The notes under the pieces are model-generated. The model was not told the DNA's origin and made no database searches. It worked only from the letters and a program-made list of their open reading frames with translations. Shown here one piece after another: positions 31,601-61,700 of a stretch of DNA of 64,000 nt. The DNA comes from Anadara kagoshimensis. Its lineage: Eukaryota > Mollusca > Bivalvia > Arcoida > Arcidae. Both the position numbers and the translations under genes were made by a program. The stretch spans positions 3,643,058 to 3,707,057 of the forward strand of contig CM037870.1 in NCBI GenBank assembly GCA_021292105.1. Reading direction: 5' to 3'. Each line of letters starts with the position of its first letter. The first letter of the stretch is position 1.

Positions 31601-34600
31601 GTGGCAGAAAAACACCTTGGCGATTTATAGTGTCCAGTGACCCAATAACTAAATCCAAGTGAGAATTCCCCCAACACCAAATTGCAAACAGATCTATAGG
31701 CCAGGTCCAACATTTAATTGAATATCAATACAAAAATACTTAAATCTTATACTTTGTTTATCATTTTGGTGGTCATTTTGTCCGCCATATTGAAAATGGC
31801 CGCCGTTTTGATTTTCAGATCATCAGCAGACATATGTAAAATAATAATTAGGTGAAACATACAAAATAAATTTCTGTATATTTCTGAAAAAATGGGTAAT
31901 AACACACTGCAAATACATATAATGTGACTTTGTCCACTAATTTGTCCGCCATATTGAAAAATTGCGGCCATATTGATTTTTTTTGTTGGCCCCATATCTG
32001 AGTATAAATTCCAGCTTATGAACTATGCTAAGTCAAGCCTAATTTAATAATTTAACAAAGTTTATGCTTTCAAACGACCTCAAATAAACAGCTATATGCA
32101 AAAAATATTGTCAAATAATCTGCAGATGTGATCATTAATATTGTACAACGAATATCTATTTGTTACTATTTATCCGCCATTTTGTTCAGCCATTTTGGAT
32201 TGGAAACAACTTCAAGATGTTTCTATGACACAGGTCATGTACAAAAAGATGTATCTATGGGTAATCAAAAGTCATATACAAAAATTTTTCATTCAATTCT
32301 GATTTTTAGAATCAGTACCAAAATGTTTAGATCTGCATATTTTATTATTTGAGCGGCCATATTGTCCGCCATATTGGAAATGGTAGCCATTTTAAATTTT
32401 GATAAATTTTGAAAATATATTACATAACCTTTATCTGGTTTTTTTCTTAAAGCAAAGTTTTTGTTTTCAAAAGATCGCCAAAAAGTCATATGCAGACCTA
32501 TTTTTTAAATATCCTGCGGTTCAAGACAATGACGCAGTACAGCTATTTGTTATAATTTAGCCGCCATTTTGTTCGCCATATTGAATTTGATGGCCATTTT
32601 GAAAACAAATTTGTAAACAATTTTAAAATATATCTATGAGTAATCACAGATCATATACAAAATGTTTTCATGCGATACTTAATTGAAAATCGGTAAAAAA
32701 ATGCTTAAATCTACGTTTTTCATTATTTGAGCTGCCATTTTGTCCGCCATATTGGAAATGGCAGCCATTTTGAAATTCAAATCATCAGCAAATATATGTT
32801 AAAGTAATAAGCAGATCAAAACTAAAAAAAATTCCTGCATATTTGTGAACAAAATAGGTGATAACAAATTTTAAATCAGTTTATGTGATTTTGGCGGCCA
32901 TTTTGTCCGCCATATTGAAAATGGCGGCCATATTGGATTTTTTGGATGGCCCCATATCTGAAAATAATCTCCAGGTCATGAACTATAATCATGCCAAATT
33001 TCATGCTTTTAACAAAAAACCCACAATTTTTTCACGATTCTGCTGGACTAGTTATGTTAGACACGTGAACTTCCACCAGGGAAGTGAGGCCGGGTGCTCC
33101 GGAAGGGTAAGCACATTGTGTGAAAGGAACATGGAACTATGAGATGTCAAATATATCCAAGGCAATCCTGGACACAGAGACATCAAACTTATCAACAATA
33201 CTGTGATGACGGCCATAAAACCTTTTGAGGGCCTAGGCTTGCAATATCCCTGAGTCAACAATTTATTTGCAAGCAGCCTACTTCGTTGTACAAAGTCCCC
33301 GTAGTGGGAACAAGCTCTACCATAGCGTATTAATTGGGAAACAAATACACCATATGCAGGAGAAGCAGGTATATTGCTGCATAAAAAAGGAAAGTTGACA
33401 ATAGAAAAATTGAAGTCATCACGTTTGTCATAAAGTTTCAAATGTAGCCTTTCCTGTGCGTCATAATTCAGGTATAAGTCTAAATATGAAGCAGAACTTG
33501 AGGAATCAGTCGTGTCTTTTATTTCAAGCTCACTAGGATAGATGACATTTACATAGTCTCCAAATTTAGTCTAGATACATATAATGTTGTAATTACTATA
33601 AAACTTTTGGGTTTCTGAAATGTAATATTTGAAATATATGGAATAAAGTCACTAATTTTGAAAACTGAAATGATTTATGGTTTTGTGATGAAAATGATAC
33701 AATTTAAATATGTGTACAACACATTATATTGGTGATTATAATGTTGTCAGCCCCAGAAAAAATCTGACATTATTTACCAGTATTTTTGATGTGGTAAAAT
33801 TGTCTATTTAAAGGATGGAAGAACAGCTTTACATATAGCTTTATGGAGAGGTAAAACAGACGTGGTATACAAGTTAGTGGAGGCAGGTGCTGATGTCAAC
33901 ATTCAAGATGAGGTAAACACCACATATAACAGATTATTTATGAGGTCACTGACACTGAAATTTTGTTCTCTTAAATTTCATGTGAATCTTATTTCACATG
34001 ATTTCCACATGAATTTCCTGTAATTTAACGAATTTCACTTTACATTTTTTCATGTGAAAATCATGTGTATTTCACATGAAATTCATGTGAACAAAATTTG
34101 GCTGTGATAATATACAGAGTAGATTATTAATGTCACCTTATAATATTGATCTTTACAATGCTAATTGTTATACCAGTTTTAAAATATGAATGTAAAGGGT
34201 CTTCAGAACCCTTGTCTCGACTGATAAAGGGGTTGACCCAGAAATCCTATATAAAGTGTTTCACCTAGGTTCAAATCCCACTTGGGACAAATCAAAGTGC
34301 AAAAAATTTTGTTAGTTCACTTGCCAAAGGTCAGTGGTTTTATCAGGGCACTCTGGTTTCCTATACCATCTCTGAACTGACTGTCTTAATCTCTTAAACT
34401 TAATTGTGATGTAAAACTGCATTACTCCACTCCACTCTGCTCATAACCATAAGCTTTTACATTATAGTTGAAGAGTAGATAACCATTTGTTATTTAAATA
34501 TTATTTGTTGTATCAAAATAATATACAATAATTGCCCTCTAGGTACCCAGAATTGTCACCCTTTAGAAAAGTTGTCATCCGAGGACATCATTATTATTTT

Positions 34601-36570
34601 ATTATACCAAATTTATATTGTGTAAAATAGCATACCCGTAAACAGTATAACAAGATTGACATTTGGAGTTAACCCCCCTTGTGCTGATTTGTAACAGGAT
34701 GTATTATCTCATGGCTGTGATGAGATGGGAGATGTTGTCACACGCTGACAATATTTTGTGAAAATATCATATTTGTTACATGTCATGTTATTGGGGAAAA
34801 AATCCAATAAAATGTGTTTGAATATGTATGACTTATAATGATAAATTTTGGTTTTTTTTTAGGATGGATGGTCACCTCTTTACTGGGCAGCTAATCAAAG
34901 TCCTGTAGATATTACCAGACTACTTATAGATAATGGTGCTAAACTTAATCTTGTTGACAAGGTAAATATGATATGCTTTTATTTGATGTCGATTGCTTTC
35001 TACCTGGGTTGCAAGACATGAAACTAGATCTCAGTCTGTATTCTAGAAGTGGCCATGGGGCCATTTGTAATAACATTGAAGGCTTTGTTGAAACTTATAT
35101 ATTTTATTCTGGAAACATACATGTACAACTATACAGTATCATGTCCGCACTCCTAATGTGCTAACCACATGGTTATGACGTCCAAGTGATGTCAGAGTCA
35201 AGGGAGGTAATTTACATTTAATCTCGTGCCCAATCATACAATCGTAACATACAGTATTTGTATATAAATAATGTAACACCATTGGTCGCTTTTTTTGCCA
35301 TAGGCAGTATTGTTAAGGCCTTAGTGCTCCATAGTTGACATTTTCCGTACATGAATGCAAAAATATTAGTGTTATGTGTTTTTTTTTAAATTTGCGCTGA
35401 TGGCATGTTACGGCAGGTTTCTTTATCATGCCAAGTCTACCGTGACACGGGACTTCATTTATTTTAAGTTCCCATCCGAAATAACCGTGACTTTCATTTT
35501 CGCAATGCCGAGTCCTTGGCAAAAGAACAGTCACTACCCACTTTCAAGTCTTGGGTCAGACCCAGCCGGGGTCGAATCCACAACCTTCCACTTCCGGAGT
35601 GAGCACTCTACCAACTGAGCTACTGCAGTGGTTCACCAGTTACAAAGCTAAAGTTTTTTATGTCAACTGTATTGAATACATGCATCTATTTTATATTACA
35701 GAGAGGATTCAATGCACTTCATGTAGCACTAACTAAATCACAGTTTGATACAGCTAAAGTATTAATACATGAAGGAGCAGATTTAAACAGGAAAGTTCAG
35801 GTTAGAAATGATATTTTTAATTTTGTTGATAATTTATTTTTCTTATCTTGTTCAGTCTGTTTCAATCGCTTCTAGTTGTAAGCGTCCTCTGTAGCGGCCA
35901 CAGGTTGCCTACAACTCTACAGAGGTGTCTTAAGTGTGAACCGAGACACAGGACCTTGGTTTGAGTCTCATCAGAAAGACTACACGTCAAGTAAGGAGCT
36001 TTTTACAGCTGATGAAAATCACGATGATTTACAGTTAACTAAACACCCTTCTGGACAAAATATTTTTTGTTCAGACAGTTTTTCTGGTTTCACAGGTTTA
36101 TGTACAACAAAATATAAATGGAATGCCATAGAATAATAGTTCTGTTTAAACAGGAAGCTCTGTATAACCAAAAACAAAATGTACCAATCCATGTCAACAT
36201 CACAAAATCATGAATATTTTTTATATTTCAGGGAAGAAGTTTTGTGACACTTTTACTTAACAAAAAGCTAACACCACATGAAGCCATGGACATATTATCA
36301 TATAGTGTTCTATATGGATACAATCTCAGGAATGACTACTCAGTGAGGAAAGGGACTTTAAGACAATTTTCAAAAGACGAGCCGTTTCAGCGGTGGTTAG
36401 AAGGTGTCGAGACGCATGTGGACTCGTTATCATGTCTTTGTAGAGTACAGATACGTGACAGGTTATCAAAATGTGGACATCAAGTTAAACCAGCAATCGA
36501 TAAATTACCATTGCCAAAATTACTCGTCAGTTATTTAAAGTACAATAATGCTCAGGGAGATATAACATGA
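22691..36570 (+). CDS. Ankyrin repeat and SOCS box (ASB) family protein, 7 coding exons
   Basis: Predicted substrate receptor of an Elongin B/C-Cullin-5 E3 ubiquitin ligase; the ankyrin repeats would select the substrate. Exons: 22691-22828, 24714-24812, 25326-25424, 33814-33912, 34863-34961, 35702-35800, 36232-36570. Exons 2-6 are each exactly 99 nt in phase 0 and each encodes one 33-residue ankyrin repeat (for example SALHLAARSGKTDILLELI, TALHIALWRGKTDVVYKLV). Exon 1 adds a partial repeat (VKSGDIKTVRRLVKGG). Exon 7 carries a linker and a SOCS box at residues about 276-315: BC box SLSCLCRVQIR and Cul5-box LPLP at 303-306. The total is 323 residues. The first ATG is used; a second in-frame ATG lies 18 nt downstream. 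The exon 1 donor (TGG|gttatt) is weak and inferred from phase. Intron 3 is 8.4 kb and full of repeats. The gene is head to head with DNAJC7. I cannot assign the ASB subtype. Confidence 0.9.
22964..23543. mobile_element. 580-bp TIR element with CAGGGGCGTAGC ends and ATCAT duplication in ASB intron 1
   Basis: The left end CAGGGGCGTAGCCAGG and the right end agctacgcccctg are inverted. ATCAT flanks both sides as a 5-bp duplication. The ends are hAT-like. It sits about 135 bp after the proposed ASB exon 1 donor. Contains a GA-rich run near 23032-23050. No transposase. Confidence 0.75.
23632..24173 (+). repeat. SINE family A copy carrying a nested element, ASB intron 1
   Basis: Box-A-like gaccttggtggctgattgg and box-B-like aggttttaatctgac are followed by the family body (gcttgctgaaggatagtggt). 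The copy is interrupted at 23731-24038, and the halves rejoin cleanly at CTAAG. Confidence 0.75.
23731..24038. mobile_element. 308-bp TIR element GCCTAAAAAA...TTTTTTAGGC with CTAAG duplication
   Basis: Inverted ends include atatgtgtgtttccgctaac and its complement, separated from the tips by a poly-A/poly-T run. CTAAG at 23726-23730 and 24039-24043 is a 5-bp target duplication inside a SINE, so the boundaries are precise. Confidence 0.85.
25838..27520 (+). repeat. Left inverted arm of the 7.2-kb element
   Basis: Within the arm a longer period recurs: the phrase tagttcatgacctggagatt near 25911 returns with changes near 27255. The same sequence on the other strand forms the right arm. Mirror-image ORFs in the two arms are by-products of this symmetry. 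Confidence 0.8.
26270..26935. repeat. Tandem triplication, unit about 215 bp, inside the left arm
   Basis: ggcggctaaattataacaaa begins near 26306, 26524 and 26738, each time followed by the same 190 bp. The second and third units are nearly identical. Confidence 0.9.
27757..28630. repeat. Unclassified spacer repeat inside the 7.2-kb element
   Basis: It begins with a gctgagcttatggcatggcg phrase, like the head of the element at 55641 (gtgagcttatggtatggtg), and runs to about tctgtccgaggtctgttc. It is probably another interspersed repeat caught inside the larger element. No coding signal. Confidence 0.4.
29108..29823 (+). pseudogene. Penelope-like reverse transcriptase fragment, disrupted
   Basis: Conceptual translation shows RT landmarks: KTFDFSTIYTTIPH (motif A region, 29121 onward), GIPMGTNCAPLLADLFLYS (29396-29452) and YIDD near 29531-29542, then LEIKDTT and DFNFSIVNFPF. 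In-frame stops (for example near 29272) and a break after NFPFL show it is dead. The D...YTxIP motif A favours Penelope-like elements (family knowledge). Two near-identical phrases just upstream (28880 and 29028) show an additional local duplication. Confidence 0.75.
30140..31110 (+). pseudogene. Broken mobile-element ORF with PIN/FEN-like nuclease motifs
   Basis: Reading frames overlapping at 30365-30592 and 30558-30938 together show an acidic pattern EAD ... IVSNDTDTFALLL ... AHILTGDDCMSEVGTK, followed by a Cys-rich stretch (VCRCTGKC). The order resembles invertebrate transposon-associated proteins with a PIN-like nuclease fold (inference). A frameshift near 30560-30590, and a stop after 30935, indicate decay. 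The exact family is not recognised. Confidence 0.5.
31740..33048 (-). repeat. Right inverted arm of the 7.2-kb element
   Basis: Reverse-complement match to the left arm from tip to about 1.3 kb inward, with several ATGGCGG-containing blocks in the same order. It lacks the extra copies of the triplicated block. Confidence 0.8.
33050..33573 (-). pseudogene. Penelope-like reverse transcriptase C-terminal fragment interrupted by the 7.2-kb element
   Basis: The minus strand encodes LEIKDTT, SASYLDLYLNYD, KLYDKRDDFNFSIVNFPF and AYGVFVSQLIRYGRAC, continuing toward the right tip of the 7.2-kb element. It is the same protein family as 29108-29823 but a separate copy. Its 3' continuation resumes left of 25838 (about 25745-25837). 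The downstream part is frameshifted. Confidence 0.75.
33958..34099. repeat. 142-bp imperfect hairpin immediately after ASB exon 4
   Basis: AAATTTTGTTC at the left and GAACAAAATTT at the right bound a stretch with several inverted ttcacatgaa/ttcatgtgaa units, able to fold into a long stem. It begins 45 bp after the exon 4 donor. Confidence 0.7.
35370..35635 (-). repeat. SINE family B copy upstream of ASB exon 6
   Basis: Reverse-complement copy with head tagctcagttggtagagtgc and box-B-like region, ending 65 bp before the exon 6 acceptor at 35701. ORFs across it on both strands are repeat-derived. Confidence 0.75.
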
Positions 36571-36720: not shown

Positions 36721-36902
36721 CTGTAAAACTTTAAATCAGTGCCACCCTTTGATAAGTAAAATTTTGGCATTATAAAGGGACTTGGTGATAAATCAGGGGA
36801 GGACTATATTTAGAAAAACATAAAAGAAATGTACATTTTTGTATTTTGGTACTTCAGAATAAATGGTGAGGGGTCAAGGAACGTTATAACAAGGTTTTAC
36901 TG
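36721..36902. mobile_element. 182-bp TA-flanked MITE (CAGTAAAACC ends)
   Basis: The left end CTGTAAAACTTT and the complement of the right end, CAGTAAAACCTTG, lie between TA dinucleotides at 36719-36720 and 36903-36904. Related ends at about 41169 and 42925 suggest another copy that hosts the 41373-42769 element. Confidence 0.6.
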
Positions 36903-36913
36903 TATGAACTTTC

Positions 36914-37338
36914 ACTGGCTTTATAAGTTAAAGATCAGGTCTGGCTAACTAGAAGCTGTCATAATAGTTATAGATACTTAGCACCTACAATAAAGCATTG
37001 TTTTAATGATTGTATAAATTTCCTGCAAGTAAAAATTTGAAATTTCTCAAAAAATAAGGTATACTTCCTCATGCAAAGTATTTCCTTAACTTAATTTGGT
37101 AAAATTTATTTTGGTCTTTTATCTTCAAAATAATTTTGGTTTCATAATTTGGTCAAAGCACTACTGATGAGGAATTGTATTCCGAAACGGCCGTCTAGTG
37201 CTGTAAAATTAAAACTGGTATAATATGTAATTTAATGCCCATCAATAACTATGCCAACTCCCTTACTGGCTTTATAAGTTAAAGATCAGGTCTGGCTAAC
37301 TAGAAGCTGTCTTAATAGTTATAGATGCTTAGCACCTA
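36914..37338. repeat. Direct repeat of 74 bp offset by 351 bp: one and a fraction units of a retrozyme-like repeat
   Basis: The 74-bp segments 36914-36987 and 37265-37338 differ at only two positions, so the locus looks like a truncated tandem array with a 351-bp monomer. The single complete monomer contains the hammerhead motif at 37157-37202. No ORF is present. Small non-coding retroelements with tandem hammerhead monomers of this size (retrozymes) are described in metazoans, including molluscs; membership is inference. Confidence 0.65.
37157..37202 (+). ncRNA. Type I hammerhead ribozyme motif
   Basis: All core elements are present in order. Stem I 5' strand AGCACTA (37157-37163), CTGATGA (37164-37170), stem II GGAAT-TGT-ATTCC (37171-37183), GAAA (37184-37187), a minimal stem III around CGGCCG, then the GTC cleavage triplet (37193-37195), and stem I 3' strand TAGTGCT (37196-37202), which pairs perfectly with the 5' strand. 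A very short stem III is the hallmark of hammerheads in Penelope-like elements and retrozymes, which are thought to cut best as dimers. Confidence 0.85.
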
Positions 37339-38414
37339 ATGTTAAAATCTGACTGAACAAAATGGTGATTAATTGAGGTTTTAGGTATTTGTAACTGTTA
37401 AGGTATGTTTGATTTATCCAGAGGTGTACTTTGACAAAACCCCAGAGCTGAGAAGAACAAGTGGCAATTATAAGCTTCTACAAGTAAAAGAAAGAGTGGA
37501 GTGGAGTGAGTATTGGAGGGTTACTCCCAGTCAACATTCTTTCATTAATATGGATGTGGTCAGTTATGGCTTGGTAGAGGAAACTAGAGTAACCAGAGAA
37601 AACACTGACCTTTGTCAAGCGAACTGATAAAGTTTGTCACATTAGGATCTGACAGGGTGGGGTTTGAAACCTAGGTGGTAAGAGACATTGTGATCTGTAA
37701 CCCAGCACACCACTTTGACACCGAGGCTCCAAAAGAAAGGGTGGAGTTGATTGAGTATTGGTGTTTCATGACCAAGTCAAGATTCTTTGACTTATATCTA
37801 GGCTGTCAGCCATGAAATTGTGGAGGAAACCTGAGTAAACCCCCCCCCCAAAAAAAACAAAAAAAACTGAGTAAGCAAACTGAGAAACTTTTTCACACTA
37901 GGATCTGTCCAGAGTAGGGTTCAAACTTTGTGAGAGTCACTGTGACCATAAGTGCATGCTTTATACTGCTCATAAAGAAAAAGAACATGATTTCAGCAAA
38001 ATTTAAGGCCCATGGGTTTCTTGTTTATTTTGTCCTTACAAAATATGCAATCTCTAAAGTACCAGGAATTTTGACAAATAAATACAACTATATTAAACAC
38101 AGTGAGGGTCTAAACTTGCTATACATATACTATGGGTGTAGTGGAGTAATAAGGTTTCACAACCAAGTCTCAAGATTCTGTCACCTATATGGATGTGGTC
38201 AGTTCTGGGATGGTGAAAACTAGTGCCCAGAGAAAACTACATCAGCAAGTGAATTGAAAATTGTTCTCGCACTAGAATCTGCCAGAGTTTATTTAAATGC
38301 ACAGAATGAGAGTAGCTGTGTTCTGTAAGCACTTTTGACCACTGTGGTCCAACATTTACTTCGACAGAGGATTTTCAACTGCAAAATATCTTAAAATGCC
38401 ACAAATTACACTAC

Positions 38415-43086: not shown

Positions 43087-43430
43087 TTAACCACTGCAGT
43101 AGCTCAGTTGGTAGAGTGCTTGCTCCATAAGTGGGAGATCATGGGTTCGAACCCCGACTGGGTATGACCCTAGACTTGAAAATGGGTAGTGTCTGTTCTT
43201 TCACCAAGCACTTGGCATAATAAAATCAAAGTCACTGTTCTTTCAGATGAGAAGTTAAAGTAAATGAGGTCCCATGTCACGGTAGGCGTGGCATGATAAA
43301 GAACCCTGCTGTATAATGCCATCAGCACAATGCACAGGCAAAATTCCTGCACCTTCGCCTATAGCTGGCGACATCTTTATATAAGTAAAATATTCTTGAC
43401 TGGGAAGTTAAACACCATTTCTCAACTCTT
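43087..43430 (+). repeat. SINE family B full-length copy just upstream of the SOCS exon
   Basis: Forward copy with clear internal promoter-like boxes: box A gtagctcagttggtagagtg and box B gggttcgaacccc, followed by the family body and ending tcttgactgggaagttaaac. It is tRNA-like only in its first 70 bp; the acceptor stem does not pair. Confidence 0.85.
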
Positions 43431-46700: not shown

Positions 46701-49700
46701 AAAATGGCCTTTATTGGCAGGTAGCCCTTATATACAGGTTCAAATAATGAGAATCGAGCAATTGGGATACAATTTTACTGGCTTTTATAAGCAGGTGGCC
46801 CTTATATAGAGATGGTCTTTAAGACAAGTTTGACTGTAGTTATATAGGTCGAATGTGAAGTCTTACCATTTACCAATTGCTTACTGAGTGACGAGTCTTT
46901 CACCAATTAATTTTTTAGGAGGCCTCAGTGACTAATTGGTCTAATGTCACACTGGCTTGTAGATGACAGTGCCTCTTGTCATCTAGGTTTGAATTTCTTT
47001 CAGGCGGGTCCTAGAGCAAGCAAGTTTGTCACATTGCTTGCCAAAGGATGGTGATTTCTTCCCATTGACCATTTCAATGGGGTTCGCCGCCGTACCACGT
47101 GATCAATACCTCTTAACGTTTGTGCGGAACATTTTGGAAAACGTCAACGTTACAAATTCCCGGAATAACGTTGTTTTTACGGGAAAGTGTCATATTGTGC
47201 GATTCCATGTCCATTGGAAACAAGCGTTTCACAGACACGTTAGAAGGTATCACGTGGTACAGCGGCAAACCCCATTTACAATACAGACCTATCCAAAGTT
47301 TAACACTGAAAAAAAAGAAAAAGAGTTGATGCTTGGCTGTCAGATGGCTGAGAATGATATGGATAGTTAGTGCTAAAAAAGGAGCAGAGATATCAAGCAG
47401 CTGTTCAGAAGCTGTCATGCTATAGGTAATGGGGAGCGGAGACAAGTTACGGATTTGTTAGCTTAGTGTTAAACATTTGACAGGCCAGTACTGTAAGTGA
47501 ACAAATCTTGACTAGGGTGTAAAACCCAATTAATCCCGGCCCCTGCACTGCCCTGATTTTGAAAGTTTAATTTAAAATGATCAAAATCAAAAGAAGGAAA
47601 GGTGAACAAAAGAAAAAAATATTTCCACTTTTAATCAGGTAATGTATTATGTAATACATTATACTGTATTTATGTACCTTTAGTTCCTGTTGAAAATTGA
47701 TTTTAATGTCAAAAAAGTTTTTTTCTTTTATTTAATATTTCAAATAATGGTAGATTTAAAATTTAATTACCGATACTAATATATGATATATGTGATATGC
47801 GATACATAATACTATGTGTACACTGTTTTAGTTCCTGTTTTTTTGTTTTATTTAATATCTCAAAAAAAATTAAAAATTTGAACAGTGATTTACATTGTAT
47901 ATGCAGTCAAACAAAGTTTAGATTTAAAAATGTTTTATTGCCTCCTCGAACAGATTGTAAATCTACGGGTAAATCAGAGGGTGAGAAACTATAAATACAA
48001 AAATCACAGAAAATACAATAAAATACAACCTGAAATACATGTACAGTAGTATAAAATACAACCTGAAATCGGAGACATATAAAATACACATGAAATACTC
48101 ATTTCCGTCAATAATGCAAAATTACAAGGAAAAACCAAATCAACACATTATAGAATGTCATATTTAAAACAGTAGTGTAGCCCATTAAAATGTCCCATAG
48201 AAATTCAACTGTTTATATACGATAAATGTTCATGTCAAATTACGCGGGAAATAAAAAGTAAACAAACATGTACTTTTAAAGGGAATAAACAATTAAATTG
48301 CTTTATCTTTAGTGGTTTGACTCATATCCACAAGATGGATGACTATTAATACTTCCCTATGTTTCCATTCTTAGCAGTAGTTGCCAAATTTGCCATTCAG
48401 GCTACTCATTTTTGAGGAAATCTTTCTCAGACTAAGTTTTTTTAGCGAATTTGTGAACACATACTTATTTTCAAAAATTTTAGAAACTCTACTAATGATT
48501 TTAAATTTGTGAAAATCTAGCTTTCATATTCATTTTGTATCAGATTTAGATGTCATCAGTTATACATTATTATTAATAAAAATAAAAACAATTGAAATGA
48601 TCTGATGAAGTTCCTTGAACAGTCAATATCATATGTCACTTTCAGGAGTCCTGGACTAGAGGTCTTAGTGGCCAAGCGGTTCAAAATGTTGGCTAACAGT
48701 GCCTCTAAATGCCTAGGTTCAAATCTCACTTTGATATATCCCTAGTATGAGAAGGTTTTTCAGTTTTCTTGCTTGACACTCTGGTTTTCTCCACCATGCC
48801 AGAACTGACCACCTCAGAATAGGTGAAAGAATGACAAGGGTGCAAACACCTATAAATTTTTAAAAGATTGCCTGCTACTTTTGTTTAAATTGATAAAACA
48901 TTTGGAATTTGGTTGTCATTGAAACCTTCACTGTCTTTGAATTCCTTATTAGTACTACCTATTTAAAATATCCTTATGTCTTCCATTGCTGGTAGCCAAA
49001 ATCATATATGGCTACTGATTATACGAGAGTTATTTTCAAAAAGTAACCTATTGTAGCAAATTTATGAAAAAATACTTTTAAACTGGATTATTTTTTTCAC
49101 AATTTGTTTCAATTCGGCTACTAGTAATTTTAAATTTTTTGAAACCTAGATATCCCTGTACTTAAAATGAATTAAATCTCTAAGTAAAACTGCTCCAGTT
49201 TTAGAACAAGTATTTACAAATTCTGACAATTTGTTTTGTGGTTTTGATTGCCAAAAACTCTATCATTGCCATCATTTAACAGTAAAATGAGGCTAAAACT
49301 CAGATAATGTTTTGGTATTACAACACAAGTGTTTTCTTTGATGTATTTCATTGTATCATTTATCTTTATCAGTTACGACATGCCTCGTTAACAATCAATT
49401 AATGTGTTTTATTCTCCTCAGATAACCGGTGATACAATGTTTATCTTCCAATATCCATGGCAACACTTTTTTTAAGTTAAAAACAAGAATTCTGCAGAAT
49501 AAATGTGTCTTCTTGTCAGTTTGATGAACTCTGGTCAAACCAATGGAACTGTAAGCATTAAAATAACAGTTAAACCTAGATTCAAAGTGCCTCTCCCTGT
49601 CTAGGTTCAAATTCCAATCAGTCAGATCCTAATGTAAAAAAGTTTGTCAGTTCGTTAGTTTTCACTGGGCACTCTGGTTGCCAGTTTGGTAGTTTTCACT

Positions 49701-52700
49701 GGGCACTCTGATTGCCAGTTTAGTGGTTTTCACTGGGTACTCTGATTGCCAGTTTGGTGGTTTTCACTGGGCACTCTGATTGCCAGTTTGGTGGTTTTCA
49801 CTGGGCACTCTGATTACCAGTTTGGTGGTTTTCACTGGGCACTCTGATTGCCAGTTTGGTGGTTTTCACTGGGTACTGTGGTTGCCAGTTTGGTGGTTTT
49901 CACTGGGCACTCTGATTGCCAGTTTGGTGGTTTTCTCTGGGCACTCTGATTGCCAGTTTGGTGGTTTTCTCTGGGCACTCTGATTGCCAGTTTGGTAGTT
50001 TTCTCTGGGCAATCTGATTGCCAGTTTGGTGGTTTTCACTGGGCACTCTGATTGCCAGTTTGGTGGTTTTCTCTGGGTACTCTGATTGCCAGTTTGGTGG
50101 TTTTCACTCGGTACTCTGATTGCCAGTTTGGTGGTTTTCTCTGGACATTCTGATTGCCAGTTTAGTGGCTTTCACTGGGTACTCTGATTGCCAGTTTGGT
50201 GGTTTTCACTGGGCACTCTGATTGCCAGTTTGGTGGTTTTCTCTGGGCACTCTGATTACCAAGTTTGGTGGTTTTCACCGGGCACTCTGATTGCCAGTTT
50301 GGTGGTTTTCACTGGGCACTCTGATTGCCAGTTTGGTAGTTTTCTCTGGGCACTCTGATTACCAAGTTTGGTGGTTTTCACCGGGCACTCTGATTGCCAG
50401 TTTGGTGGTTTTCACTGGGCACTCTGATTGCCAGTTTGGTGGTTTTCACTGGGCACTCTGATTGCCAGTTTGGTGGTTTTCTCTGGGCACTCTGATTACC
50501 AAGTTTGGTGGTTTTCACCGGGCACTCTGATTGCCAGTTTGGTGGTTTTCACTGGGCACTCTGATTGCCAGTTTGGTAGTTTTCTCTGGGCACTCTGATT
50601 ACCAAGTTTGGTGGTTTTCACCGGGCACTCTGATTGCCAGTTTAGTGGCTTTCACTGGGTACTCTGATTGCCAGTTTGGTGGTTTTCACTGGGCACTCTG
50701 ATTGCCAGTTTGGTGGTTTTCTCTGGGCACTCTGATTACCAAGTTTGGTGGTTTTCACCGGGCACTCTGATTGCCAGTTTGGGGTTTTCACTGGGCACTC
50801 TGATTGCCAGTTTGGTAGTTTTCTCTGGGCACTCTGATTACCAAGTTTGGTGGTTTTCACCGGGCACTCTGATTGCCAGTTTGGTGGTTTTCACTGGGCA
50901 CTCTGATTGCCAGTTTGGTGGTTTTCTCTGGACATTCTGATTGCCAGTTTGGTGGTTTTCTCTGGACATTCTGATTGCCAGTTTAGTGGTTTTCACTGGG
51001 CACTCTACCAGTTTGGTGGTTTTCACTGGGTACTCTGATTGCCAGTTTAGTAGTTTTCACTGGGTACTCTGATTGCCAGTTTGGTGGTTTTCACTGGGCA
51101 CTCTGATTGCCAGTTTGGTGGTTTTCTCTGGGCACTCTGATTGCCAGTTTGGTGGCCTTCTCTGGGCACTCTGATTGCCAGTTTGGTAGTTTTCACTGGG
51201 CACTCTGCTTGCCAGTTCGTTAGCTTTCTCTGGGTACTCTGATTGCCAGTTTGGTGGTTTTCACTGGGCACTCTGATTGCCAGTTTGGTGGTTTTCACTG
51301 GGCAATCTGATTGCCAGTTTAGTAGTTTTCACTGGGTACTCTGATTGCCAGTTTGGTGGTTTTCTCTGGGCACTCTGATTGCCAGTTTGGTGGCCTTCTC
51401 TGGGCACTCTGATTGCCAGTTTGGTAGTTTTCACTGGGCACTCTGCTTGCCAGTTCGTTAGCTTTCTCTGGGTACTCTGATTGCCAGTTTGGTGGTTTTC
51501 ACTGGGCACTCTGATTGCCAGTTTGGTGGTTTTCACTGGGCAATCTGATTGCCAGTTTAGTAGTTTTCACTGGGTACTCTGATTGCCAGTTTGGTGGCCT
51601 TCTCTGGGCACTCTGATTGCCAGTTTGGTAGTTTTCACTGGGCACTCTGCTTGCCAGTTCGTTAGTTTTCTCTGGGTACTCTGATTGCCAGTTTGGTGGT
51701 TTTCACTGGGCACTCTGATTGCCAGTTTGGTGGTTTTCTCTGGGCACTCTGATTGCCAGTTTGGTGGCCTTCTCTGGGCACTCTGATTGCCAGTTTGGTA
51801 GTTTTCACTGGGCACTCTGATTGGCAGTTCGTTAGTTTTCTCTGGGTACTCTGATTGCCAGTTTGGTGGTTTTCACTGGGCACTCTGATTACCAGTTTGG
51901 TGGTTTTCACTGGGCACTCTGATTGCCAGTTTGGTGGTTTTCTCTGGACATTCTGATTGCCAGTTTGGTGGCCTTCTCTGGACATTCTGATTGCCAGCTA
52001 AGTTGTTTTCACTGGGCACTCTGATTGCCAGTTTAGTAGTTTTCACTGGGTACTCTGATTGCCAGTTTGGTGGTTTTCACTGGGTACTCCGATTGCCAGT
52101 TTGGTGGTTTTCACTGGGCACTCTGATTGCCAGTTTGGTAGTTTTCACTGGGTACTCTGATTGCCAGTTTGGTGGTTTTCACTGGGCACTCTGATTGCCA
52201 GTTTGGTAGTTTTCTCTGGGCAATCTGATTGCCAGTTTGGTGGTTTTCACTGGGCACTCTGATTGCCAGTTTGGTGGTTTTCTCTGGGTACTCTGATTGC
52301 CAGTTTGGTGGTTTTCACTCGGTACTCTGATTGCCAGTTTGGTGGTTTTCTCTGGGTACTCTGATTGCCAGTTTGGTGGTTTTCACTGGGTACTCTGATT
52401 ACCAGTTTAGTAGTTTTCACTGGGTACTCTGATTACCAGTTTGGTGGTTTTCTCTGGACATTCTGATTGCCAGTTTAGTGGCTTTCACTGGGTACTCTGA
52501 TTGCCAGTTTGGTGGTTTTCACTGGGCACTCTGATTGCCAGTTTGGTAGTTTTCTCTGGGCACTCTGATTACCAAGTTTGGTGGTTTTCACCGGGCACTC
52601 TGATTGCCAGTTTGGTGGTTTTCACTGGGCACTCTGATTGCCAGTTTGGTAGTTTTCTCTGGGCACTCTGATTACCAAGTTTGGTGGTTTTCACCGGGCA

Positions 52701-55700
52701 CTCTGATTGCCAGTTTGGTGGTTTTCTCTGGACATTCTGATTGCCAGTTTGGTGGTTTTCTCTGGACATTCTGATTGCCAGTTTAGTGGTTTTCACTGGG
52801 CACTCTACCAGTTTGGTGGTTTTCACTGGGTACTCTGATTGCCAGTTTAGTAGTTTTCACTGGGTACTCTGATTGCCAGTTTGGTGGTTTTCACTGGGCA
52901 CTCTGATTGCCAGTTTGGTGGTTTTCTCTGGGCACTCTGATTGCCAGTTTGGTGGCCTTCTCTGGGCACTCTGATTGCCAGTTTGGTAGTTTTCACTGGG
53001 CACTCTGCTTGCCAGTTCGTTAGCTTTCTCTGGGTACTCTGATTGCCAGTTTGGTGGTTTTCACTGGGCACTCTGATTGCCAGTTTGGTGGTTTTCACTG
53101 GGCAATCTGATTGCCAGTTTAGTAGTTTTCACTGGGTACTCTGATTGCCAGTTTGGTGGTTTTCTCTGGGCACTCTGATTGCCAGTTTGGTGGCCTTCTC
53201 TGGGCACTCTGATTGCCAGTTTGGTAGTTTTCACTGGGCACTCTGCTTGCCAGTTCGTTAACTTTCTCTGGGTACTCTGATTGCCAGTTTGGTGGTTTTC
53301 ACTGGGCACTCTGATTGCCAGTTTGGTGGTTTTCACTGGGCAATCTGATTGCCAGTTTAGTAGTTTTCACTGGGTACTCTGATTGCCAGTTTGGTGGCCT
53401 TCTCTGGGCACTCTGATTGCCAGTTTGGTAGTTTTCACAGGGCACTCTGCTTGCCAGTTCGTTAGTTTTCTCTGGGTACTCTGATTGCCAGTTTGGTGGT
53501 TTTCACTGGGCACTCTGATTGCCAGTTTGGTGGTTTTCACTGGGCACTCTGATTGCCAGTTTGGTGGTTTTCTCTGGGCACTCTGATTGCCAGTTTGGTG
53601 GCCTTCTCTGGGCACTCTGATTGCCAGTTTGGTAGTTTTCACTGGGTACTCTGATTGCCAGTTCGTTAGTTTTCTCTGGGTACTCTGATTGCCAGTTTGG
53701 TGGTTTTCACTGGGCACTCTGATTACCAGTTTGGTGGTTTTCACTGGGCACTCTGATTGCCAGTTTGGTGGTTTTCTCTGGACATTCTGATTGCCAGTTT
53801 GGTGGCCTTCTCTGGACATTCTGATTGCCAGCTTAGTTGTTTTCACTGGGCACTCTGATTGCCAGTTTAGTAGTTTTCACTGGGTACTCTGATTGCCAGT
53901 TTGGTGGTTTTCACTGGGTACTCCGATTGCCAGTTTGGTGGTTTTCACTGGGCACTCTGATTGCCAGTTTGGTAGTTTTCACTGGGTACTCTGATTGCCA
54001 GTTTGGTGGTTTTCACTGGGCACTCTGATTGCCAGTTTGGTAGTTTTCACTGGGTACTCTGATTGCCAGTTTGGTGGTTTCCACTGGGCACTCTGATTGC
54101 CAGTTTGGTGGTTTTCACTGGGTACTCTGATTGCCAGTTTGGTAGTTTTTCACTGGGCACTCTGATTGCCAGTTTGGTGGTTTTCACTGGGCACTCTGAT
54201 TGCAAGTTTGGTAGTTTTTCACTGGGCACTGATTGCCAGTTTGGTGGTTTTCACTGGGTACTCTGATTGCCAGTTTGGTGGTTTTCACTGGGTACTCTGA
54301 TTGCCAGTTTGGTGGTTTTCACTGGGCACTCTGATTGCCAGTTTGGTGGTTTTCACTGGGCACTCTGATTGCAAGTTTGGTAGTTTTTCACTGGGCACTG
54401 ATTGCCAGTTTGGTGGTTTTCACTGGGTACTCTGATTGCCAGTTTGGTGGTTTTCACTGGGCACTCTGATTGCCAGTTTGGTGGTTTTCACTGGGCACTC
54501 TGATTGCCAGTTTGGTGGTTTTCTCTGGGCACTCTGATTGCCAGTTTGGTGGTTTTCTCTGGGCACTCTGATTGCCAGTTTGGTAGTTTTCACTGGGCAC
54601 TCTGATTGCCAGTTTGGTGGTTTTCTCTGGGCACTCTGATTGCCAGTTTGGTGGTTTTCTCTGGGCACTCTGATTGCCAGTTTGGTAGTTTTCACTGGGC
54701 ACTCTGATTGCCAGTTCGTTAGTTTTCTCTAGGTACTCTGATTGCCAGTTTGGTGGCCTTCTCTGGACATTCTGATTGCCAGTTTAGTGGCCTTCTCTGG
54801 ACATTCTGATTGCCAGTTTAGTGGTTTTCACTGGGCACTCTGATTGCCAGTTTGGTGGTTTTCACTGGGCACTCTGATTGCCAGTTTGGTAGTTTTTCAC
54901 TGGGCACTGATTGCCAGTTTGGTGGTTTTCACTGGGTACTCTGATTGCCAGTTTGGTGGTTTTCACTGGGTACTCTGATTGCCAGTTTGGTGGTTTTCAC
55001 TGGGCACTCTGATTGCCAGTTTGGTGGTTTTCACTGGGCACTCTGATTGCAAGGTTGGTAGTTTTTCACTGGGCACTGATTGCCAGTTTGGTGGTTTTCA
55101 CTGGGTACTCTGATTGCCAGTTTGGTGGTTTTCTCTGGGCACTTTGATTGCCAGTTTGGTGGTTTTCACTGGGTACTCTGATTGCCAGTTTGGTGGTTTT
55201 CACTGGGTACTCTGATTGCCAGTTTGGTGGTTTTCACTGGGCACTCTGATTGCCAGTTTGGTAGTTTTTCACTGGGCACTCTGCCAGTTTGGTGATTTTC
55301 TCTGGGAATTCTGATTTACTCCAGCATCCAAGAATTGACTGCTAAATAATATAAATGAAAGGATTTTAACATGTCTGATACTGCACATATTGACAGTACA
55401 CACATATATCATTGGAAAGGTAAAATTCTTGTGCAGAATATAATGTATTGCCCAACCTGCCTTAAAGGCCACCTCTACATAAGGACCACCTGCTTTTAAA
55501 GGCCAGTAAAATTATATCCAGAATCCTCTCTATTCAGGTTATTTGAGCCTGTGTATAAAGGCCACCTGTTCATACATGCAGGTCATAATGCAGTCTTCAT
55601 AGAGTCCTTCATATACAGGTCATAATATAATGACTATTTTTAGCTCACCTGACCAGAGGTCATGTGAGCTTATGGTATGGTGCAGCGTGTGTATGTGCAT

Positions 55701-58700
55701 GCGTGCGTGCGTGTGTGCGTGCGTCGTTAACACACATTTTCGACTTCTCCTCTGAAAGTACTTGGCAGATTTCAACGAGACTTGGTCAGAAGCATGTCTG
55801 GGTCGATGCAATTCAGATTTGTTCGTGGCGTTGCCATGGCTACCATAACTAGGTCAAGGTGACCTAGGGGTGCAAAAATCTTAAAAAATCTTCTTCTCCG
55901 AAAGTATTGATTGGAGAAAAAATCTGATGAGATATTTGGCTTCTCTAGGGTCTTAAGCCTGTAGTTTGTTCATTTTGTGAAATTCGGTCGAAAAATGGGT
56001 TACGCGTTTTTGCGTTTAATTTTGAAAAAATCGTAAAATAGCTTCAGATTGTTATAACTTGACTACTTGACCAGATAATGACATGGCGTTTTCAGTTTTG
56101 ACATCTTCTTGTTAGTATCTTCAAAATGAGGTCAAGGTCAATTGTGAAGGTCGTGACCTAATTTTTTTTACCTCTGATTATCATTATTATCTCGAAAATT
56201 ATAAACTTTTTGTATAGTCATGTATATTAGAATGTTGTAGGTATTAATACAACGATCATTTTGATGTATAGAAAAAGGTCATGGGTTCAAAGGTCAAGGT
56301 CACAGATGGAAAACAATACAGAAATGGTTAATTATCTCGAAAACTATAAACTTTTTGTATAGGCATTTATATTAGAATGTTGTAGATATTGATACAACGA
56401 TCATTTTGATGTATAGAAAAAGGTCATGGGTTCAAAGGTCAAGGTCACAGATGCCTAACAAAACCCAAAATAGTTAATTATCTCGAAAACTATAAACTTT
56501 TTGTATAGGCATGTATATTAGAATATTGTAGGTATTGATACGACGATCATTTTGATGTATAGAAAAAGGTCATGGGTTCAAAGGTCAAGGTCAAAGATGC
56601 GAATCAATACTGAAATGGTTAATTATCTCGAAAACTATAAACTTTTTGTATAGGCATGTATATTAGAATGTTGTAGGTATTGATACAACGATCATTTTGA
56701 TGTATAGAAAAAGGTCATGGGTTCAAAGGTCAAGGTCACAGATGCGAAACAATACAGAAATGGTTAATTATCTCGAAAACTATAAACGTTTTGTATAGGC
56801 ATGTATATTAGAATGTTGTAGATATTGATACGACGATCATTTTGATGTATAGAAAAAGGTCATGGGTTCAAAGGTCAAGGTCATAGATGCGAATCAATAC
56901 TGAAATGGTTAATTATCTCGAAAACTATAAACTTTTTGTATAGGCATGTATATTTGAATGTTGTAGGTATTGATACAACAATCATTTTGATGTATAGAAA
57001 AAGGTCATGGGTTCAAAGGTCAAGGTCACAGATGTGAAACAATACCGAAATTGGTTAATTATCTCGAAAACTATAAACTTTTTGTATAGGCATTTATATT
57101 AGAATGTTGTAGATATTGATACAACGATCATTTTGATGTATAGAAAAAGGTCATGGGTTCAAAGGTCAAGGTCACAGATGCTAAACAACACCAAAATGGT
57201 TAATTATCTCGAAAACTATAAACTTTTTGTATAGGCATGTATATTAGAATGTTGTAGGTATTGATACAACGATCATTTTGATGTATAGAAAAAGGTCATG
57301 GGTTCAAAGGTCAAGGTCACAGATGCGAAACAATACAGAAATGGTTAATTATCTCGAAAACTATAAACGTTTTGTATAGGCATGTATATTAGAATGTTGT
57401 AGATATTGATACGACGATCATTTTGATGTATAGAAAAAGGTCATGGGTTCAAAGGTCAAGGTCATAGATGCGAATCAATACTGAAATGGTTAATTATCTC
57501 GAAAACTATAAACTTTTTGTATAGGCATGTATATTTGAATGTTGTAGGTATTGATACAACAATCATTTTGATGTATAGAAAAAGGTCATGGGTTCAAAGG
57601 TCAAGGTCACAGATGTGAAACAATACCGAAATTGGTTAATTATCTCGAAAACTATAAACTTTTTGTATAGGCATTTATATTAGAATGTTGTAGATATTGA
57701 TACAACGATCATTTTGATGTATAGAAAAAGGTCATGGGTTCAAAGGTCAAGGTCACAGATGCTAAACAACACCAAAATGGTTAATTATCTCGAAAACTAT
57801 AAACTTTTTGTATAGGCATGTATATTAGAATGTTGTAGGTATTGATACAATGATGATTTTGATGTATAGAAAAAGGTCATGGGTTTAAAGGTCAAGGTCA
57901 CAGATGCGAAACAATACAGAAATGGTTAATTATCTCGAAAACTATAAACTTTTTGTATAGGCATGTATATTAGAATGTTGTAGGTATTGATACGACAATC
58001 ATTTTGATGTATAGAAAAAGGTCATGGGTTCAAAGGTCAAGGTCACAGATGCGAAACAATACCAAAATGGTTAATTATCTCGAAAACTATAAACTTTTTG
58101 TATAGGCATTTATATTAGAATGTTGTAGATATTGATACAACGATCATTTTGATGTATAGAAAAAGGTCATGGGTTCAAAGGTCAAGGTCACAGATGCGAA
58201 ACAATACCGAAATGGTTAATTATCTCGAAAACTATAAACTTTTTGTATAGGCATTTATGTTAGAATGTTGTAGGTATTGATACAACGATCATTTTGATGT
58301 ATAGAAAAAGGTCATGGGTTCAAAGGTCAAGGTCACAGATGTGAAACAATACAGAAATGGTTAATTATCTCGAAAACTATAAACTTTTTGTATAGGCATT
58401 TATTTTTAGAATGTTGTAGATATTGATACAACAATCATTTTGATGTATAGAAAAGGTCATGGGTTCAAAGGTCAAGGTCAGAGATGCGAAACAACACCGA
58501 AATGGTTAATTATCTTGAAAACTATAAACTTTTTGTATAGGCATGTATATTAGAATGTTGTAGGTATCGATACAACAATCATTTCGATGTATAGAAAAAG
58601 GTCCTGGGTTTAAAGGTCAAGGTCACATATGTAAAACAATACTGAAATTGTTAATTTTCTTGAAAACTATAAACGTTTTGCATAGGCATGTATATTAGAA

Positions 58701-61700
58701 TGTTGTAGGTATTGATACAATGATCATTTTGATGTAAAGAAAAAAGTCATTAGGGTTTAGTATTTACGTTTACTTTAAATCTATCAGCTAGCCATTAGTT
58801 ATCAGGTGAGCGTATAAGGCCCATGGGCCTCTTGTTACTGGTTCCCTTAAGTGGTCTTTATAGAAAGGTTTAACTGTCTATTAGTTTATTTTGTAAATTT
58901 TATTTCAAATTAGCAAAACAATGACAGATATTATTTAACACCCTTGTATGGGGTTGTTAACATAAATGATATACATGTATATACACATATTTATTAATTA
59001 AATTAATTAAATTTTTACACTATTTTTAGAATGCCATCAAGATTTTATGGAAAGTATGAGACAGTTAAAAGATGTAAGTATACATGTATATTACTAAATG
59101 ACAAAATCTAAGTTGTATCAATCAACCACAAACATACTAACCATGTCTGAATCAAAATCCCAAAAGCAAAATAAAACCTTTGAAAACTGACAAATTAAGT
59201 TAAAAATGTGAACTTCCACCAGAGAAATGAGACCAGGTTTTCTGGAAGAGAAAGAACCTGTCTAGCTGTTACACCCATCATGTGTAAAATCAAAATTGAT
59301 AATGAAAGTAATCTGCAAATTTATAAAGTTCTAACTTCAACACCTTCCACTCGATGTTCTACAACACCTTCCACCTGATGTTCCACAACACCTTCCACTT
59401 GATGTTCCAGTCTGATACAGATAATTTAATTTAGTGTTGATATGGTTTTGACTTACGGTACAAGATACAAATACAATATTAATGGAAGGAGCGACATTCA
59501 AAATGTCATGTTATTTCACTTTTATTAAGATGCCTACTGTTATTTTGCAATTTTATGAAATTTCAGATTAAGATTTGAATTTATTACCTACCGGGTATTC
59601 AGTGATATAAACATCACCTTGATAAGTTATTAAATACATGTTCATATGTATTTAATATAATACTATCAGAGTCGGTGTGTTTGTGACAGTGAATTATGCT
59701 TTATTTCCATAGAAAATCGAATATGTTTGAAACTTTGAATAAAGATTGATATTTTTCACTATCCTGTACCTAGTTGTAACAGGAAATCTGTATTCGCATT
59801 TATGATTAGTATAGAATATCTCTGCATAGAGTAAAACATTGGTGCTATGGGGATTTAACATGTTGATAAACCAGGCAAATGGCAGATTTTGTTGTGCTTA
59901 TGACATGTATGGTGTAAAACATCACCACAGTGAACATGGACATTTTCACCATGTAAAGTCCCTATATCACCAACATTTTCCTTCCTTCAAAATACTTTAT
60001 GATAATTGTGATTGGGCATACAGAATTCTGGTTACGACTATGACCAAGTGAGTGAATAATACCTACCATTATTCAATTTTATTGGATTTTTCTATGGAAA
60101 TTAACCATACTTCACTGTCACATGATGTATCTCTTGAAAAGTGGACGAGAGGTCTAACATATTTGCTTCCGGATCACCTAGGTTCTCATTCAGGACATAT
60201 CCTAGTGTGAGAAAGTTTGTCAGTTCATTCACCAAGGGCCAGTGTTTTTCCAGGCATTCCAGTTTTCCTCACCATCTATGAACTGACTCCCTAGAATTTA
60301 TCTTGACTGAAGCACAAAACTAAATTACTTCTCTCCACTAATATTTTTACTCGATATACAAAATTAAGGTCCCAATTATTTACACAATATGTAACAATTG
60401 TAAATGATAAATCTGTATAGGCAAACATTGACTTGTCCACTTGACCTTTAATTTAAATATTTATTATGGATGAGTACATTTAAGTGTAGTGAACACAGGT
60501 ATTTATCTGGTCTACATATCACTAAACCCGTACAGTAATAACTGAGAATCATTAACATACGAATCATCATGCACCTCATATCAATATTCCAAATGAAAGG
60601 TCAAGTGAACAGGTCAATGTTGTTTGCCTATAGAAAAAAAACACCAACATATATAGGGTGGTGTAAAACCTAAATACCTTGCTACTTAAAACACTTATTG
60701 AGTGATAAATTAAGTAGTGAGCTATGGTAGCTGTCTGATATAGTTATATTGACTCGTGTGGATTTCTGTCATTACTTTTATCAAATGATTACAGTTAAAT
60801 AAATGATGCTGATGATAAACTTTCAATTGCTGTAGATAGATTTAACTTAACAGGAAGTTATAATAAAGATTTATTGTATATGTTCCAGTAAGGCAAACAA
60901 CTCTTTGTTACAGAAGTCTGATAAATTTATTTGTTCTTTGATAATACATGTATTTCATTTCATGTTTGAAAAAAAAACTTGCATGTTATTTTTTGGTATA
61001 ACGGTAATACACATATTTGGAAAATAACATTTTATTGTTCTTCGATAATATTTCTCTTCAGTGTTCATAAACCAAAATAAACAAATAAAGAATTTTTTTG
61101 TTCATAAAGTGTGATGGTATTTCACTTCATGAATTTGGTGAAATATATTTTATTTGTTCTTTGACAGGGTTAGCTCTGGCTCTCAATAAATTGACATATC
61201 GCCGGCCATGCCCACAATGTTGCGACAAATGGCCGGATGCTTGATTTTCACGCAAAAAGAATGAAAACTCGACCTGAATTGCGCCATTTAATGGCAAACA
61301 CTAGTATGTCATTAGTTGCTGTGACGCTGCCTTGGTACCGTGATGGTGGCTAGTGTCGGAACATTGTGGGCGTGGTCGGCCATACATCAATTGGAGCCAA
61401 AACACTAGCCAATTTTAACATTTAGGAGCTGGTTTATATGTAAAGGTGACAGTTAAACTAAGAAAAGAAACAAAAATGTTTTAAATTGGTTCTTGTAACC
61501 TGCTATATAGATTTTCATGGTTATAAATAATATGTAACACTTATTTTACTTTTTCATACTTTTGTAAAACTAAAAAACTAGCTTTAAAGTACTGACATTA
61601 GTTTCTTCAATCATGAAAATCAGTAAGGGTACCAATGACTTTGGTAATTTATTATTTCAGTGTGGCTGGTATTGGGGACCACTAAGCTGGGACGAGGCAG

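Follow-up and report, generated by a model that had tools for sequence, protein, structure and literature searches.

A probable truncated retrozyme copy in Anadara kagoshimensis and the fixed 3' end of its family

The locus and its hammerhead

The window, the whole 64,000-nt stretch of Anadara kagoshimensis DNA that was analysed, carries a hammerhead ribozyme within a short repeat-flanked segment (Table 1). An ankyrin/SOCS-box-like gene has its last coding exon at 36214-36567 on the plus strand (SOCS_box E 2.5e-9, with an Ank match within 35603-35872), and the retrozyme follows it ~0.4 kb downstream on that strand. Elsewhere, the window contains an array of ~167 copies of a 34-bp unit (49644-55316), an array of ~18 copies of a 145-bp unit (56186-58750, with a 436-bp period also called) and a tRNA-like stretch (43093-43164, plus strand) that scored 31.7 bits against an Rfam cut-off of 29, was negative in ARAGORN and is perhaps the head of a SINE. 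Relics of Penelope-like elements, described in the initial annotation of the window, were recovered as the C-terminal reverse-transcriptase part of an abundant element, whose N-terminal GIY-YIG domain is present in another copy (L112); with its permuted N-terminal GIY-YIG, the element of 33055-33570, L109 and L112 is one that we take to be Naiad-like.

Table 1. Coordinates of the retrozyme copy, its flanks and the neighbouring Penelope-like relic.
Feature	Position	Strand	Basis
C-terminal reverse-transcriptase part of abundant Penelope-like element, relic; context, not retrozyme	33055..33570	-	Domain and genome searches
Left copy of 74-bp flanking duplication, outside the element	36914..36987	+	Repeat and genome search
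18 nt separating left duplication from retrozyme	36988..37005		Flank comparison
Probable 5'-truncated single retrozyme unit	37006..37235	+	Unit positions 134 to 40, crossing the cleavage site; 9 differences in 228 columns versus sampled majority
Type I hammerhead ribozyme	37157..37202	+	Descriptor match; RF00163 at 28.1 bits, under gathering score 34
8-nt palindrome ACGGCCGT, stem III between two RNA copies in predicted double hammerhead	37187..37194	+	Co-folding prediction
Fixed 3' junction of the family, ...ATATGTAATT, unit positions 35-37; putative reverse-transcription start	37230..37232	+	Mapped ends, column conservation, genome-wide patterns
29 nt separating retrozyme 3' end from right duplication	37236..37264		Flank comparison
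Right copy of 74-bp flanking duplication, 97% identical; with left copy, possible target-site duplication	37265..37338	+	Repeat and genome search, age test

The hammerhead is genuine, because no equally good match occurred in 200 shuffles and because a query restricted to 101 nt gave a match to RF00163 Hammerhead_1 (37158-37201, plus strand, 28.1 bits, E 1.5e-5). Every part listed in the initial annotation was found, namely a stem I of 7 bp (37157-37163 paired with 37196-37202), the core segments CTGATGA (37164-37170) and GAAA (37184-37187), a stem II of 5 bp (37171-37175/37179-37183) with a TGT loop and a minimal, near-absent stem III (37188-37193) that has a single C-G pair besides A-U and a GGCC loop; cleavage would be expected 3' of C37195. 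The full pattern matched once in the window and not at all in 100 shuffles. A descriptor with thresholds of at least 5 bp for stem I and at least 3 bp for stem II likewise gave one match in the window, compared with seven in 200 dinucleotide shuffles, and none of these 200 shuffles had a match with a stem I of at least 7 bp and a stem II of at least 5 bp.

Support from Rfam, a check proposed in the initial annotation, was thus obtained on the short query at a score below the gathering score, and did not extend to larger searches: no hammerhead was reported over the whole window at gathering threshold or among the five matches with E<=10 over 1,001 nt, probably owing to the speed filters. Four sampled loci searched together also returned only one hammerhead, again at 28.1 bits, despite the presence of six plus-strand hammerhead cores in locus L005 and five in L009. 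In the 37 non-exact copies of the family, a single pair cell had both bases changed and many pairs were broken; this is expected of dead copies, and stem covariation supports neither side. A variant search with a pattern excluding the usual second stem II base gave 718 places (control, 6), and most of the 100 listed look like mutated family members. The compensatory changes asked for in other genomic copies were seen, by eye, in one stem II pair among these 100 (C1:3060359), and not as a useful covariation signal.

The palindrome ACGGCCGU is predicted to give an 8-bp stem III between two molecules. The predicted co-fold of two copies is an exact double hammerhead (-34.5 kcal/mol; single copy, -12.3), and the predicted minimum of the lone molecule is not the catalytic fold. 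In these predictions the double fold depends on the palindromic loop, since random loops in its place produced it in just 18 of 300 cases; as modelled, the self-complementary stem III would be that of a hammerhead acting as a dimer.

The retrozyme family and its tandem unit

Searching the genome (1.115 Gb, 36 contigs) for the 46-nt hammerhead with up to three mismatches revealed 9,638 places (4,871 + 4,767), and none for the reversed control. The initial annotation had suggested looking for a 351-bp unit in tandem; the tandem period is instead ~339 bp, with units of the sampled arrays mostly 337-344 bp long (commonest 339, range 322-368) and nine listed junctions spaced 338-339 bp apart in one array on C3. 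When repeated end to end, one unit from L005 has a longest stop-free stretch of 49 codons, and its GC content is 0.351. The earlier reading of the locus as retrozyme-like was supported, as the family combines a type I hammerhead (Rfam score 28.1 of 34 bits), tandem repeats within ~150-450 bp in many copies and non-coding sequence with GC <50%, the window copy itself being single and truncated. The reverse transcriptase with GIY-YIG endonuclease that marks an autonomous Penelope-like element was not found in the unit, which has no long frame.

The tandem copies contain ~100 bp that are missing from the window copy, and the locus is probably a dead, 5'-truncated single copy of an animal non-LTR retrozyme family. 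Release of a unit needs two hammerheads, and this truncated single unit has one; that the locus could itself make a unit-length circle, as the perhaps circular RNA of the initial annotation would imply, was not supported. In each of the 11 arrays that had two or more units, the units resembled one another more closely than they resembled units of other arrays (by 1.0 to 5.0 points; the 11 include two near-duplicate pairs, L002/L003 and L005/L007), and every array had at least one change common to all its units. Private changes outnumbered partly shared ones in nine of the 11, the reverse being the case in L007 and L087. Such homogeneity fits the repeated copying of one template; it could instead come from gene conversion or unequal exchange.

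The 74-bp direct repeats described in the initial annotation are indeed spaced exactly 351 bp apart and 97% identical, which might suggest that the 351-bp stretch between them is the element's own monomer. This has next to no chance of being right and is ruled out by two genome searches. Using 36900-37350 as query, 84 matches were listed (the best 40 of 4,377 first-look candidates being scored), and all 83 non-self matches listed lay within 37006-37248, without any of 36914-36987 or 37265-37338; the 74-bp sequence itself occurred only at its own two places (all 14 of 14 candidates scored, and also the best 40 of 747). Furthermore, the printed arrays carry a different sequence in that part of the unit, and the repeats, absent from the family matches listed, do not delimit a monomer. 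Because they are found solely on both sides of the window copy, they represent a local duplication. The pair may be a target-site duplication, a term that has to stay provisional because stretches of 18 and 29 nt intervene between the repeats and the retrozyme. The duplication copies differ at 2 of 74 sites and the window retrozyme differs from the sampled majority at 9 of 228 columns; a comparison of their ages (P=0.06 with all nine differences, P=0.25 with the six private ones) is compatible with duplication and insertion being similar in age.

Among the flanks of sampled copies, 5 of 80 pairs outscored all 240 mismatched controls. One of these was a TA repeat and one a retrozyme piece; the remaining three were L001, L028 and L101, of which L028 has its duplication, a 146-bp repeat that matches the 3' part of an abundant Penelope-like element, inside another repeat, and L101 has its own 70 and 102 nt off. 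Where animal non-LTR retrozymes have target-site duplications, these exceed 4 bp. A long duplication is seen in three of the 80 sampled copies, two of them doubtful, the window copy showing 74 bp with its 18- and 29-nt gaps, and target-site duplication as a general feature of the family is unsupported by the 80 flank pairs.

Insertion ends: constant at 3', scattered at 5'

The ends of insertions were mapped at 98 loci (L001-L108 minus L039-L048), 82 of them picked by exact hammerhead and 16 by overall similarity, with unit positions numbered from the first base 3' of the cleavage site. From 120 matches, 103 complete and distinct insertions were retained; 17 were dropped as they ran off the locus or repeated the same flanks. 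The 3' ends fell at unit positions 34-43 in 90 of the 103 insertions, most commonly at 37 (39 cases), and the other 13 lay at 14, 17, 19, 28, 29, 31, 31, 189, 205, 252, 280, 325 and 327. The 5' ends were scattered over unit positions 1-335. Selection of an exact hammerhead at 82 of the 98 loci hides any 3' ends before position 7; unselected neighbouring copies share the 3' end, for example in L027, L068, L082 and L088. Position 35 was conserved in 78 of 83 copies after re-anchoring, position 36 in 71 and position 37 in 67, followed by 41 at position 38 and at most 44 of 83 at the later positions listed. The 3' end of the retrozyme reads ...TAATT.

Prompted by the selection of loci, we also checked the ends genome-wide with two 30-nt patterns at up to three mismatches. 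The pattern of unit positions 8-37 occurred at 17,083 places and the junction-crossing pattern of positions 24-53 at 2,458, with no match for either reversed control, indicating that about one copy in seven runs on into the next unit; the patterns overlap by 14 nt, and unequal decay elsewhere in them could shift this ratio somewhat. The 5' ends did not accumulate at the cleavage site, 1 of 90 lying within 3 nt of it, versus 1.9 expected. The stopping rate showed no clear jump at one full turn and dropped beyond ~600 nt, and hence was not constant; 72 of 90 mapped insertions were no longer than 423 nt. AT content in the 3' flanks only slightly exceeded that of the loci (GC 0.308 versus 0.324), and the 83 printed junctions had no common poly-A tail or simple repeat.

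Insertions that share one 3' end and vary at the 5' end are the signature of target-primed reverse transcription that starts inside the RNA and falls off early. Given a start 35-37 nt past the cut, hammerhead-containing copies came from RNA in which the junction was closed; their template spanned the cleavage junction, as a circle or as an uncleaved multimer. Nowhere in the portions of the retrozyme literature available to us (including PMC7229834, PMC7761336, PMC10886601 and PMC8490949) are retrozyme insertions described as ending at a fixed point; an end fixed 35-37 nt past the self-cleavage site is a new observation for these elements.

Copying cycle, partner enzyme and known systems

We propose a cycle in which tandem copies elsewhere in the genome would be transcribed and their hammerheads would cut the transcript, probably as pairs, since stem III is very short in one molecule and would be 8 bp long between two. 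Units would then be closed into circles, or multimers left uncut. Reverse transcription, primed by a nick in the target, would begin at a set position 35-37 nt downstream of the cut; the enzyme would cross the cleavage junction, sometimes for several rounds, and drop off variably, leaving fixed 3' and scattered 5' ends. Taken together, a dead truncated retrozyme copy and this cycle of transcription, cutting and target-primed copying form an explanation to which we assign a joint probability of about 0.8.

The existence of tandem arrays, such as that on C3 with its regular junctions, and the homogeneity of units within them would also suit satellite DNA that had spread at the DNA level, by unequal exchange, through excised circles of DNA or as a rolling-circle transposon, and had kept its hammerhead by descent only. 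We consider this quite improbable, because neither random circle recombination nor elements with two fixed ends would give the ends described above, in which short, dispersed insertions share one fixed 3' end and vary at the 5' end. Target-primed reverse transcription of the LINE type typically leaves a fixed 3' end with 5' truncation, as seen here, and the same retrozyme might owe its copies to a LINE-type enzyme acting on linear multimeric transcripts, in place of a Penelope-like enzyme acting on circles. LINEs or Penelope-like elements are named as candidates in the part of the retrozyme literature consulted (PMC7229834). This alternative nevertheless seems unlikely: the fixed end is internal to the transcript unit, the printed junctions have neither poly-A nor a simple repeat in common, the start resembles the published internal start of a Penelope-like element (PMC11167929), and two Penelope-like families of this genome, the L111 family and the abundant family whose GIY-YIG is N-terminal, likewise have 3' ends that coincide with ATT or adjoin it. 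Since the 3' end is fixed and internal, mobilisation by a Penelope-like reverse transcriptase, as put forward in the initial annotation, has become a more likely hypothesis.

A candidate partner enzyme is that of the L111 Penelope-like family (RVT_1 E 4.1e-15; GIY-YIG at 25.3 bits in one search and 19.9 in another, cut-off 22.6), whose own 3' end is fixed and has a hammerhead-like relic close to it; 29 of its 39 other full rows end at query position 521 and 10 at 515-547. The relic, a degenerate-hammerhead-like stretch ~55 nt from the end with a TGT loop as in the retrozyme, occurs at 233 places at up to three mismatches (control, 0), and shuffling the 3' part 20,000 times gave one match to a descriptor drawn up after the stretch had been seen. 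It deviates from the core at C3 and G8, has no Rfam match and is no more than a lead; a further lead is the occurrence of retrozyme pieces within ~60 bp of L111-type copy ends at three scored loci, at one of which the Penelope-like element splits a retrozyme. The idea that the retrozyme is simply the 3' portion of L111 was rejected, as the rows of the family end at 515-547, before the retrozyme, and the L113 spacer is unrelated. Comparison of the last 100 nt of the retrozyme with those of the two Penelope-like families gave no significant similarity (p 0.146 and 0.128). A hammerhead search of the Penelope-like loci found nothing in L109, L110 or L112, and its one match in L111 belongs to the neighbouring retrozyme.

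Copies of the L111 family (L111 3380-3520 and other places) often form inverted pairs with their 3' ends outward, some just ~100 bp apart. One such inverted pair splits a single retrozyme copy at G000:C4:35693043-35694906, and the short overlap of the split pieces (query 908-916) may be a target-site duplication of the Penelope-like insertion. Of the 98 retrozyme loci sampled, 54 contain fragments of the Penelope-like L109.

A review, as far as its text was available to us, finds no conserved motif in animal retrozyme repeats that would indicate an autonomous partner (PMC7761336); our data bear on how these elements return to DNA, and by whose enzyme. We tentatively suggest, as a possibility that falls short of being probable, that a Penelope-like enzyme, perhaps of the L111 family, copies ribozyme-made circles from the fixed point 35-37 nt past the cut for less than one, one or several turns, thereby giving both dispersed truncated copies and arrays. 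If true, ribozyme and start site would be one conserved module common to parasite and helper. A fixed end at a set distance past the cut would be a pointer to the partner enzyme, and the same could be sought in mussel, coral and salamander retrozymes.

Small hammerheads of Penelope-like elements with a minimal stem III reportedly act as dimers, an observation attributed to Lunse and colleagues in 2017; the Anadara hammerhead is alike in its minimal stem III and its predicted action as a dimer, and differs in not lying within an autonomous element. Animal non-LTR retrozymes were defined, and their circular RNA demonstrated in mussel, by Cervera and de la Pena (2020, PMC7229834), to the available parts of which the following comparisons refer. 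The retrozymes of Mytilus galloprovincialis (~350-390 bp) resemble the present family in their type I hammerhead, non-coding tandem repeats with units a few hundred bp long, low GC content and copy numbers in the thousands, whereas their circular RNA has been demonstrated, the retrozyme here being known from DNA, and those parts of the paper give no fixed insertion end. The satellites of newt and axolotl (HHR_Amex1, PMC7229834) share a ~330-bp unit and a single-pair stem III with a palindromic tetraloop, and according to the same excerpts their hammerheads cleave better as dimers; they differ in their vertebrate host, and loop 1-loop 2 contacts are described for them.

A parallel to the fixed 3' end is offered by PAc, a Penelope-like element of Anolis (Frangieh et al. 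2024, PMC11167929), for which cleavage at ATT is followed in vitro by reverse transcription that begins inside the RNA, on the 3' side of the hammerhead. Inactivating this hammerhead did not lower PAc insertion in vitro (PMC11167929), which argues against a need for cut circles. PAc is like the Anadara retrozyme in having a hammerhead upstream of a fixed internal start and ATT at the target, and unlike it in encoding its own enzyme and in a main start that lies farther from the cut, at 111-118 nt into the ORF with the cut at +26 (PMC11167929).
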